A stretch of DNA of 16,630 nucleotides, from contig JAAYOB010000040.1 of NCBI GenBank assembly GCA_012520575.1, positions 1 to 16,630 on the forward strand, read 5' to 3'. Positions 6,312-15,534 of this stretch are shown piece by piece. The position numbers and the translations under genes were made by a program. Each line of letters starts with the position of its first letter. Position 1 is the first letter of the stretch. The stretch is from Candidatus Stramentimicrobium fermentans. GTDB lineage: Bacteria; Atribacterota; Phoenicimicrobiia; Phoenicimicrobiales; Stramentimicrobiaceae. Under the pieces are notes generated by a model, which was not told the origin of the DNA, searched no databases, and worked only from the letters and a program-made list of their open reading frames with translations.

Positions 6312-8018
6312 TTACCAATGCAGAGTAAAGCCCAGCCGATTGGGTATCTGCCAGTTTAAGTAAAGATTTTTGTTGATGCGGTAGTTGATCTCCTTACGGT
6401 TTTCCTGCCATTCTTTAAAATTATTGAGGTGGACCTGTCCGCCATAATTGAATTGAATGCGGTCAAAATCCATCTGTAGGCGGCTCTGCAGGAAAGGTTC
6501 CCAGCTATTTTCGCTCGCTCGGTACTCTACTCCGGCACCAGCCCATAGCCTTATGACATAGGAGCTATAGACATCATATTCAAACCAGCCTTTAGTAATA
6601 TCATTTTCATGGCGCAAGGCTAAATTCCAACGATAGTGAGGAGATAGCGTGAGCTCAAATCCGGGAAATTCAAATTCACCATCTTTAAGGTTGCCCCAGA
6701 GGGAAAGAGAATGGTTTTCTCTTTCCGGAGTACTGCCATAGAAGCTCAGGTTAGGAATACTGGTAAAGAGGGTATGAAGCCACATCTCTTCCCTATCGTA
6801 GAGGTGTTCCAGTTCTTTTCCCCGCAATAGAATCGGCACCAATAAGTCCATATCGGTTACCCCATGGTGATTACCGGTATAATCAAAGATAAGATTAGTA
6901 AAGATTAGGTGAGGGGGGTTCACCACTAAAACAATATCCCCGGCATTCTTATTGGATAGAAATCCAAAAATGTTGGGAGGAACAGCCGGAAATTTACTCT
7001 TTCTGGTCAGAATGAGCCATTCGTCTGCACTAAGCCATTCTCCCTGATAACCATCAGTATAATAGGAAAACTCATCTTTCCCCTCAAAGAGGTATCTGAT
7101 CTTCCCTTCCCCATTCTCTTGGAAAATCACTTTACTGTCAATTGAATAACCTCTCACTATATCGGGATACCCATTCTCTTTGTAAAAAGTAAAATCTATC
7201 TTTGTCTCTTGAACAATCTTTTGGGCATAGTATTCTTTTAAGTTAAGGTCCTTTAAATAAACATTGGGGAAGAAGAAGGATTCCAATCCATCACCCAGTA
7301 CCCTATTTATTTCAAGAACATGATCAATAACTATCTCATTATCAAGAGCCATGCCATGGTCACAATATAAAATTAGATTAACTTCATCCAAATTCAATCT
7401 CTTTACTAATCTGCCAAGATAACGATCAAATCTGCGAATAGAATTTAGATATATTTTCTCTCCAAAAACATGTCCGGCAGCATCAGGAGAAAACCAGTAC
7501 AATTGAATCACTCCATAGGTTTCTAAAAGCTGAGGAATGTTCATCATGGGAAGAAACATAAGAGAATCTATCACAGGTAACCCATAAAGCATACTAAACT
7601 GAGCCCTGCGTGGTATAGCAGAAAATAGATTAGAGAAAGATTTTATCCCTGATACTTCTCTGCCTTTTTCCCTATTATAATAACCCCAGCCAATATTTTC
7701 TCCTGTTTCGTTACCGAGTCCTTCTTTGAGTCGGGGGATAATATTCTCGGTTCCACCCGGAAAGAGACTCAAACCATATTTAATGGCATGCCCTTCTTTG
7801 AAGATGGCTTTAGTATTGGGGAGATATTCTTCCTCCATATACTGAAAAAATTTTGAGGAAGAAACGGCATCAAGATGAATTATAAGAAATTTAGGGCTTA
7901 CCTCTCGGCAAAAGGCAGTAGGAACTACTGATAAGAAAAATGCGATCATAATTAGCAGATAAATAAAAAAACAACAACCTCTTCTATTGCTTTTTAAAAA
8001 AAACAGTGTTTTGATCAA
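6312..8018 (-). CDS. Exported alkaline-phosphatase-superfamily phosphodiesterase with C-terminal beta-barrel-like region
   Basis: A 568-residue exported hydrolase. Residues 15-37 form a hydrophobic signal peptide, with likely cleavage near AFC-RE. The catalytic domain (about 43-425) keeps the metal and nucleophile residues of the type I phosphodiesterase/nucleotide pyrophosphatase group: HLDAV (D50), FPGGTENIIP (T90, nucleophile), FSPDAAGHVFG (D179, H183), CDHGM (D220, H221) and NHHGVTD (H384/H385). From about 424 to the end the sequence becomes alternating aromatic and polar, like amphipathic beta-strands, and finishes GFTLHW with a terminal Trp, as outer-membrane barrels do. Enzyme plus barrel is unusual; the barrel is inference. 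The start is TTG with only a purine-rich stretch upstream; no in-frame ATG comes before M24. The substrate may be a phosphodiester or a phospho- or sulfo-lipid or glycan. The gene is monocistronic. Confidence 0.8.
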   Translation of the reverse strand: MIKTLFFLKSNRRGCCFFIYLLIMIAFFLSVVPTAFCREVSPKFLIIHLDAVSSSKFFQYMEEEYLPNTKAIFKEGHAIKYGLSLFPGGTENIIPRLKEGLGNETGENIGWGYYNREKGREVSGIKSFSNLFSAIPRRAQFSMLYGLPVIDSLMFLPMMNIPQLLETYGVIQLYWFSPDAAGHVFGEKIYLNSIRRFDRYLGRLVKRLNLDEVNLILYCDHGMALDNEIVIDHVLEINRVLGDGLESFFFPNVYLKDLNLKEYYAQKIVQETKIDFTFYKENGYPDIVRGYSIDSKVIFQENGEGKIRYLFEGKDEFSYYTDGYQGEWLSADEWLILTRKSKFPAVPPNIFGFLSNKNAGDIVLVVNPPHLIFTNLIFDYTGNHHGVTDMDLLVPILLRGKELEHLYDREEMWLHTLFTSIPNLSFYGSTPERENHSLSLWGNLKDGEFEFPGFELTLSPHYRWNLALRHENDITKGWFEYDVYSSYVIRLWAGAGVEYRASENSWEPFLQSRLQMDFDRIQFNYGGQVHLNNFKEWQENRKEINYRINKNLYLNWQIPNRLGFTLHW

Positions 8019-8184: not shown

Positions 8185-8727
8185 TTAAAATTTCACCTCG
8201 ACGCTCTGTCTGCTCTCTTCTTCGGCTTCAAAATAGGAGCGTCCTTTAAAGCCAAAAACGTTAGCAATAATGGCAGCCGGGGCCTTGGCAATACCGATAT
8301 TATACTTCATAGCGGTATCATTGTAGAATTGTCTGGAAAAACCTATCTTGTCTTCGGTATTTTTCAGTTGTTCCTGTAAATCCAGAAAGCTGGCATTGGC
8401 TTTTAAATCGGGGTAACTTTCCGCCACGGCAAAGAGGCGGCCTAAAGCTCCACCTAATTCGGTATTGGCTTTTATCTTTTCATCCGGAGTCTGGGCAGAC
8501 ATATATTTAGTACGAGCTGCGGTCACATTTTCTAAAGTCTCTTTCTCATGCTGGGCATATCCCTTGACCGTATTGACCAGATTGGGTATCAGGTCAAATC
8601 TTCTCTTCAACTGAACATCTATCTGGGCCCAGGCATTGTCCACTCTCCCCCTCAACGTGATAAAGTTATTGTAGGTTATTAATGCCCATAGAGCAGCTAG
8701 CACTAAAAAAATTAATGCAAAACTCAT
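8185..8727 (-). CDS. lemA: LemA family membrane protein
   Basis: A 180-residue LemA protein of typical length. It has one N-terminal membrane helix (2-20), followed by a long all-helical domain. Family marks are VQLKRRFDLIPNLVNTVKGY (38-57), ESYPDLKA (103-110) and SRQFYND (131-137), then NVFGF (156-160) near the end. AAAGGAG lies 7 bases before the ATG. It is the second gene after the DUF2207 protein, 109 bases away, with no terminator between them. LemA and DUF2207 proteins are often neighbours in bacteria. Their joint function is undetermined, although a role in the envelope is likely from the membrane anchors. The helical domain would sit on the outer or the cytoplasmic side; the sequence does not settle this. 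Confidence 0.93.
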   Translation of the reverse strand: MSFALIFLVLAALWALITYNNFITLRGRVDNAWAQIDVQLKRRFDLIPNLVNTVKGYAQHEKETLENVTAARTKYMSAQTPDEKIKANTELGGALGRLFAVAESYPDLKANASFLDLQEQLKNTEDKIGFSRQFYNDTAMKYNIGIAKAPAAIIANVFGFKGRSYFEAEEESRQSVEVKF

Positions 8728-15183: not shown

Positions 15184-15534
15184 TTACTCCAATCTCTGCA
15201 GTTTACACCCGTCGTAAACCGGGTCATCATTAAAGAGCACCATCGCCTCCCCCTGATGTTCCCAAAAGACCACACTCTCATCTTCATTGGCATACCTCGC
15301 ACCGGAGGCACTGACAGCTAGCTTTAACCTATACACCTTTCCTTCCAGCTGTACAACCGCCAAATCCCCTTCCTCCTCGTAGTTTACCCTTATCTCGGCA
15401 CCCGATGGACAGACAAAAATAAAATAGCTCTCTTCTGAACCTTCTTCTCCTTTTTTATAAAGTGAATAAAAATGTAAGCCGCCTATTAATATTAGAATAC
15501 TTAAACTAATGAAAATAATTTTCTTTTTATCCAT
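15184..15534 (-). CDS. MliC-like lysozyme-inhibitor domain, membrane-anchored
   Basis: A 116-residue protein. Residues 5-24 form a membrane anchor or uncleaved signal, with no lipobox. The rest is an MliC/PliC-type domain: FVCPSGAEIRVNY (40-52), VYRLKLAVSASGARYA (67-82), VVFWEHQGEAMVLF (88-101) and a final YDGC (107-110). SASGARY corresponds to the family's SGSGARY loop that enters the lysozyme active site, with Ser and Arg kept. C42 and C110 can form the conserved disulfide, which implies an extracytoplasmic location. Known relatives inhibit C-type lysozyme in Gram-negative bacteria. Here the target may be a self or competitor muramidase, which is inference. No ribosome site is evident. It leads the unit with phosphofructokinase, with a promoter at 15576-15584. 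Confidence 0.8.
   Translation of the reverse strand: MDKKKIIFISLSILILIGGLHFYSLYKKGEEGSEESYFIFVCPSGAEIRVNYEEEGDLAVVQLEGKVYRLKLAVSASGARYANEDESVVFWEHQGEAMVLFNDDPVYDGCKLQRLE

Follow-up and report, generated by a model that had tools for sequence, protein, structure and literature searches.

The 568-aa protein encoded on the minus strand of contig JAAYOB010000040.1 of Candidatus Stramentimicrobium fermentans combines a phosphodiesterase-like enzyme domain, preceded by a signal peptide, with a C-terminal tail that is probably a small outer-membrane β-barrel. The stretch analysed here, called the window, comprises 16,630 nucleotides. It is likely that the hydrolase is tethered at the outer membrane by its own C-terminal barrel, probably on the periplasmic side, and that it acts on phosphodiester head groups of an outer membrane free of lipopolysaccharide (LPS); closure of the barrel, the membrane side, enzyme activity and the lipid substrate are the parts of this proposal that we infer.

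Architecture of the fusion protein and its enzyme domain

The gene and the parts of its product are located in the window as follows:

6312..8018, minus strand: gene of the 568-aa fusion protein, with a TTG start and the stop codon at 6312-6314; full-length homologues have 53-69% identity
7905..8018, minus strand: signal peptide (about residues 1-38), with a basic start and a hydrophobic core, as read from sequence and alignment
6747..7904, minus strand: type I phosphodiesterase/nucleotide pyrophosphatase-like domain (about residues 39-424), assigned from PF01663, the ENPP4 profile alignment and the invariant ligands
6315..6746, minus strand: predicted C-terminal β-barrel domain (residues 425-568), assigned from AlphaFold2, structural matches, alternation and the invariant polar face
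6315..6335, minus strand: putative terminal β-signal L562-G-F564-T-L566-H-W568, hydrophobic at -1, -3, -5 and -7

The relatives align with the fusion protein end to end, and its closest named matches are Atribacterota bins. In the preliminary description, the fusion was placed at positions 6312-7000; this interval holds the whole tail (about 6315-6746) but also extends into the end of the enzyme domain. Cys37 was considered as a lipoprotein site and rejected, since in the alignment this residue is absent from the relatives, which argues for a type I signal peptide and not for a lipoprotein signal.

The assignment of the enzyme domain is supported by PF01663, which matches the protein at E 2.9e-11 over residues 166-264 (44 bits, with a curated cut-off of 23) and was found in all nine aligned family members (9/9). 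The match is confined to the metal-binding core, and so the remainder of the enzyme domain is divergent. The best solved relative to which the family profile leads is human ENPP4 (E 5e-6), and none of the solved relatives is close. In the alignment with ENPP4, residues D50, T90, D179xxxH183 and D220-H221 fall on its catalytic residues, the stretch covering D50 and T90 being weak (4 bits). Seven metal ligands had been listed in the preliminary description, and six of them (D50, T90, D179, H183, D220 and H221) are indeed invariant in the 16 family sequences; the last one, H385, was wrongly chosen, as the neighbouring position 384 is His in 16/16 relatives, while position 385 is His in 6/16 and Ala in 10/16. 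Judged by its position and conservation, H384 is the putative seventh (last) metal ligand, and T90 is the predicted nucleophile. From these sequence data, we infer that the enzyme is exported and is a two-metal phosphodiesterase belonging to the alkaline phosphatase superfamily, nearest to the NPP/ENPP branch.

The fold of the C-terminal tail and its last residue

The tail consists of 144 residues, is all-beta and ends with Trp (...NRLGFTLHW). The alternation of aromatic and polar residues pointed out earlier is far above chance: in 5000 shuffled orders of residues 428-568, the amphipathic alternation was never as high as in the actual sequence (z = 4.9). By the same measure, the enzyme domain and POTRA regions give values from -1.2 to 0.5, and the barrel segments of BamA from the same genome give 2.1-3.3. 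Modelling of the tail only with AlphaFold2 (alignment A2, 9 sequences) resulted in a 10-strand meander with no helix, with predicted strands at residues 437-445, 448-458, 464-471, 474-485, 489-500, 505-518, 521-530, 539-547, 553-558 and 563-567. The alignment is shallow, and one of the five models was good (pLDDT 72.4, pTM 0.63), the other four having pLDDT of 36-52; in the good model, confidence is lowest for the last two strands (pLDDT about 46-56). A prediction for the full-length protein (9 sequences) reached pLDDT 43 and was set aside. Thus, of the barrel of about eight strands suggested in the preliminary description, the barrel-like fold was retained, but the predicted number of strands is 10.

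The structural comparisons also relate the tail model to membrane barrels. Foldseek returned porins, VDAC, KdgM and a designed 10-strand barrel at E 0.01-0.2, none below 0.001, and the odd one out among the matches was a soluble lipid-transfer domain (ORP1). In the VIA-align comparison, which ran on the candidates of Foldseek, 50/50 rows were transmembrane barrels; a soluble sandwich or jelly-roll, considered earlier as the fold that would speak against a barrel, did not appear. The closest folds in the PDB are KdgM/NanC porins and OmpT/OMPLA/LpxR barrels (Z 10.6-13.3, identity 8-13%). The Z values were 13.3 and 12.7 for KdgM-type porins (rmsd 2.8-3.0 over 127-133 residues), 11.8 for NanC, 11.1 for OpcA, 10.9 for Pla and LpxR, and 10.6 for OMPLA. 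In these relatives, unlike in the fusion tail, the barrel itself is the channel or the enzyme, and KdgM, NanC, LpxR and OMPLA have 12 strands, about two more than the tail model. A search with the tail sequence against the PDB gave chance matches only (protein kinases, E 0.6).

Conservation within the tail was considered separately for its two faces, which were assigned from the hydrophobicity pattern itself, with strands taken from the model. On the hydrophobic face, the mean hydropathy is +2.0 and 8/43 positions are invariant; on the polar face, the mean hydropathy is -2.0 and 16/38 positions are invariant, including E480, D482, R490, R513, Q515, D517, N524 and Q528; the entropy difference between the faces is marginal (permutation p = 0.049). 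Such a conserved, charged polar face is expected of a packed, buried barrel lumen and not of the solvent face of a sandwich. Together with the model, these observations suggest that the tail may close into a small outer-membrane β-barrel, probably of 10 strands.

Barrels assembled in the outer membrane are known to end in a bulky residue, often Phe or Trp (PMC3419190). The aromatic residue noticed earlier at the end of the window protein is a family trait: Trp is exactly the last residue in 16/16 sequences having the C-terminus, with the stop codon directly after it in the members checked, and positions -3, -5 and -7 from the family C-terminus are hydrophobic in nearly all of the 16. Both Omp85 proteins of the fusion-bearing genome end in Phe.

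Outer membrane, lipid A genes and gene neighbourhood

A single-membrane genome devoid of BamA had been named as the other finding that would oppose a barrel; in the host genome BamA, Skp and TamB are all present. The BamA gene (Omp85, E 1.2e-44) adjoins genes for Skp and an LptB-like ATPase, and an SLH-domain protein is encoded as well. Omp85 was found in 48/50 Atribacterota genomes, and the envelope of the cultured Atribacter laminatus was reported to be consistent with the Gram-negative type with an extra internal membrane (PMC7736352). The host genome contains a second hydrolase-barrel fusion (L063:3523-6618, on G000:C28), a Phe-terminal protein of 1032 aa with Peptidase_MA-like, PD40 propeller repeat and C-terminal Omp85 barrel domains. 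At positions 15184-15534 of the window (minus strand), a small exported protein with an MliC (lysozyme inhibitor) domain is encoded.

The search for the same fusion in related genomes, proposed in the preliminary description, revealed that it recurs across one Atribacterota order. It is present in 16/24 genomes of this order, a number that includes partial copies at contig ends and one broken copy, the genomes being mostly metagenome bins, and in 0/26 other Atribacterota genomes. LpxC is distributed in the opposite way (0/24 genomes of the fusion's order and 26/26 of the others), and the split of LpxB mirrors that of LpxC, save for a few genomes in which its match is weak or missing. Nearly all genomes of the fusion's order have Omp85/BamA. 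Judging by gene content, lipid A seems to have been lost throughout this lineage and the outer membrane kept. The fusion and the absence of LpxC track one deep split, so the association of the fusion with lipid A loss may reflect shared ancestry. A second Omp85 ORF, which is long (about 900-1140 aa), is also almost confined to the LpxC-less order. No relative of the fusion was found in viral contigs and plasmids at the sensitivity used. A weak match to the tail in G041 (E 0.06) was rejected, as the protein is a sugar-nucleotide epimerase. The spread to other phyla that the labels of L036 ('Lokiarchaeota') and L038 ('Spirochaetes') would imply was not accepted either: the contigs show the Atribacterota order fusion-mazG-tamB, which makes wrong binning more likely. 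Decay of the gene was also observed. In G027 (L099, G027:C23), only N- and C-terminal fragments and a stop are left of a broken copy, and in G040:C2 (L096) the intact fusion gene is preceded, upstream of 7020, by an extra copy that has decayed and contains several stops.

In the family of the window protein, the fusion gene follows DUF2207-lemA on the same strand:

8185..8727, minus strand: lemA (PF04011), the upstream neighbour of the fusion gene; the same order is found in L095, L097, L100, L102 and L106
8837..10696, minus strand: conserved gene of a DUF2207 membrane protein (PF09972/PF20990), the neighbour of lemA

In one genus only, the fusion gene is directly upstream of mazG-tamB(-bamA-skp). 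In LPS-bearing Atribacterota, the corresponding cluster has tamB-bamA-skp and then lpxC-like and lpxB genes, and its variants in the fusion's order are mazG-tamB-bamA-skp-fabZ-lptB-like or mazG-tolC-RND-bamA-skp-lptB-like, followed by a gene for an SLH protein. In L107:9156-11225 and in L119, the place between skp and lptB-like, occupied by lpx genes in the LPS-bearing relatives, is taken by fabZ; this retained gene may be what is left of the lost lipid A cluster. In L098:3420-4382 (G037:C265), a gene of a secreted patatin-like phospholipase is located between two copies of the fusion, the upstream one being cut by the contig end.

Proposed mechanism, alternatives and known systems

It is proposed that the fusion protein would be exported by Sec via its signal peptide, after which BAM would insert the barrel through the terminal Trp β-signal. 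The enzyme would then hang on the periplasmic side of the outer membrane and could cut phosphodiester bonds, most likely in phospho- or glycolipid head groups of this membrane, in an envelope devoid of lipid A. The even number of predicted strands, considered with the periplasmic C-terminus of such barrels, makes a periplasmic location of the N-terminal enzyme most likely, and ten strands with a short linker favour this side over surface display. The head-group substrate is suggested by the enzyme class, the tamB neighbourhood and the patatin-like phospholipase between the two copies; TamB is a proposed phospholipid carrier (PMC10665443). That the tethered phosphodiesterase belongs to the machinery building or remodelling the LPS-free outer membrane of the LpxC-less order, and trims head groups of the lipids that replace lipid A, is a speculative extension which we hold to be rather improbable.

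If the barrel were a small autotransporter, the enzyme would be found on the cell surface and would degrade environmental nucleotides or other phosphodiesters. Precedents for such display exist, as the enzyme-barrel fusions EstA and PlpD/FplA put the enzyme at the surface and animal NPP enzymes work outside the cell. However, the gap between the enzyme and strand 1 is only about 12 residues, with no predicted helix to thread the pore, and the lumen face is packed with invariant bulky and charged residues. A pore of 10 strands would also be narrower than that of classical autotransporters with 12, and no autotransporter or POTRA domain of Pfam was matched at E up to 10. We consider surface display unlikely. 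Still less probable is a soluble tail, i.e., a β-sandwich or jelly-roll accessory domain binding substrate or the wall, with the enzyme free in the periplasm or secreted. Sandwiches, too, have alternating strands, and the shallow alignment, the weak E-values of Foldseek and a barrel closure that is presumed leave some room for such a domain; it is opposed by the membrane barrels in all VIA-align rows, the highly conserved polar face and the invariance of the terminal Trp (16/16) within the -1, -3, -5, -7 pattern. Finally, the barrel could be the working part, as a small channel or an oligomer, with the enzyme domain as a degenerate lid or scaffold. The limitation of the PF01663 match to residues 166-264 and the divergence of the rest would fit this explanation, but all seven catalytic and metal residues are invariant across relatives at 53-69% identity, and we consider it very improbable.

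The proposed tethered hydrolase can be compared with known systems. With NPP/ENPP enzymes (PF01663), it shares the catalytic core, the seven metal and nucleophile positions and export; it differs in that only the core matches well and in the barrel tail, which is absent from the other PF01663 proteins of Atribacterota whose sequences were inspected. EstA-type proteins (type Va) have the order of signal peptide, N-terminal hydrolase and C-terminal barrel with a terminal aromatic residue that is predicted for the fusion, but their hydrolase is of another family and their barrel has 12 strands compared to about 10 in the fusion, which is also without a predicted helical linker. In PlpD/FplA-type proteins (type Vd, patatin phospholipase-POTRA-barrel), a hydrolase is joined to an outer-membrane barrel, as is predicted for the fusion; the fusion, however, is not a patatin and has no Pfam match to POTRA or an Omp85-type barrel. 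No autotransporter or POTRA and Omp85 Pfam domain was detected in the window protein (E up to 10) or in its relatives (E up to 1), and by domain content the fusion is not a member of the EstA or PlpD families. Enzymes fused to outer-membrane barrels are already known; a full-text literature search, whose coverage excludes many subscription journals, returned no alkaline-phosphatase-superfamily enzyme with such a barrel anchor.

The fusion would represent a simple solution, found in nature, for positioning a soluble enzyme at the outer membrane. It is also a concrete candidate for a protein involved in making or maintaining an LPS-free outer membrane in diderms that are seemingly without lipid A and keep BamA and TamB.
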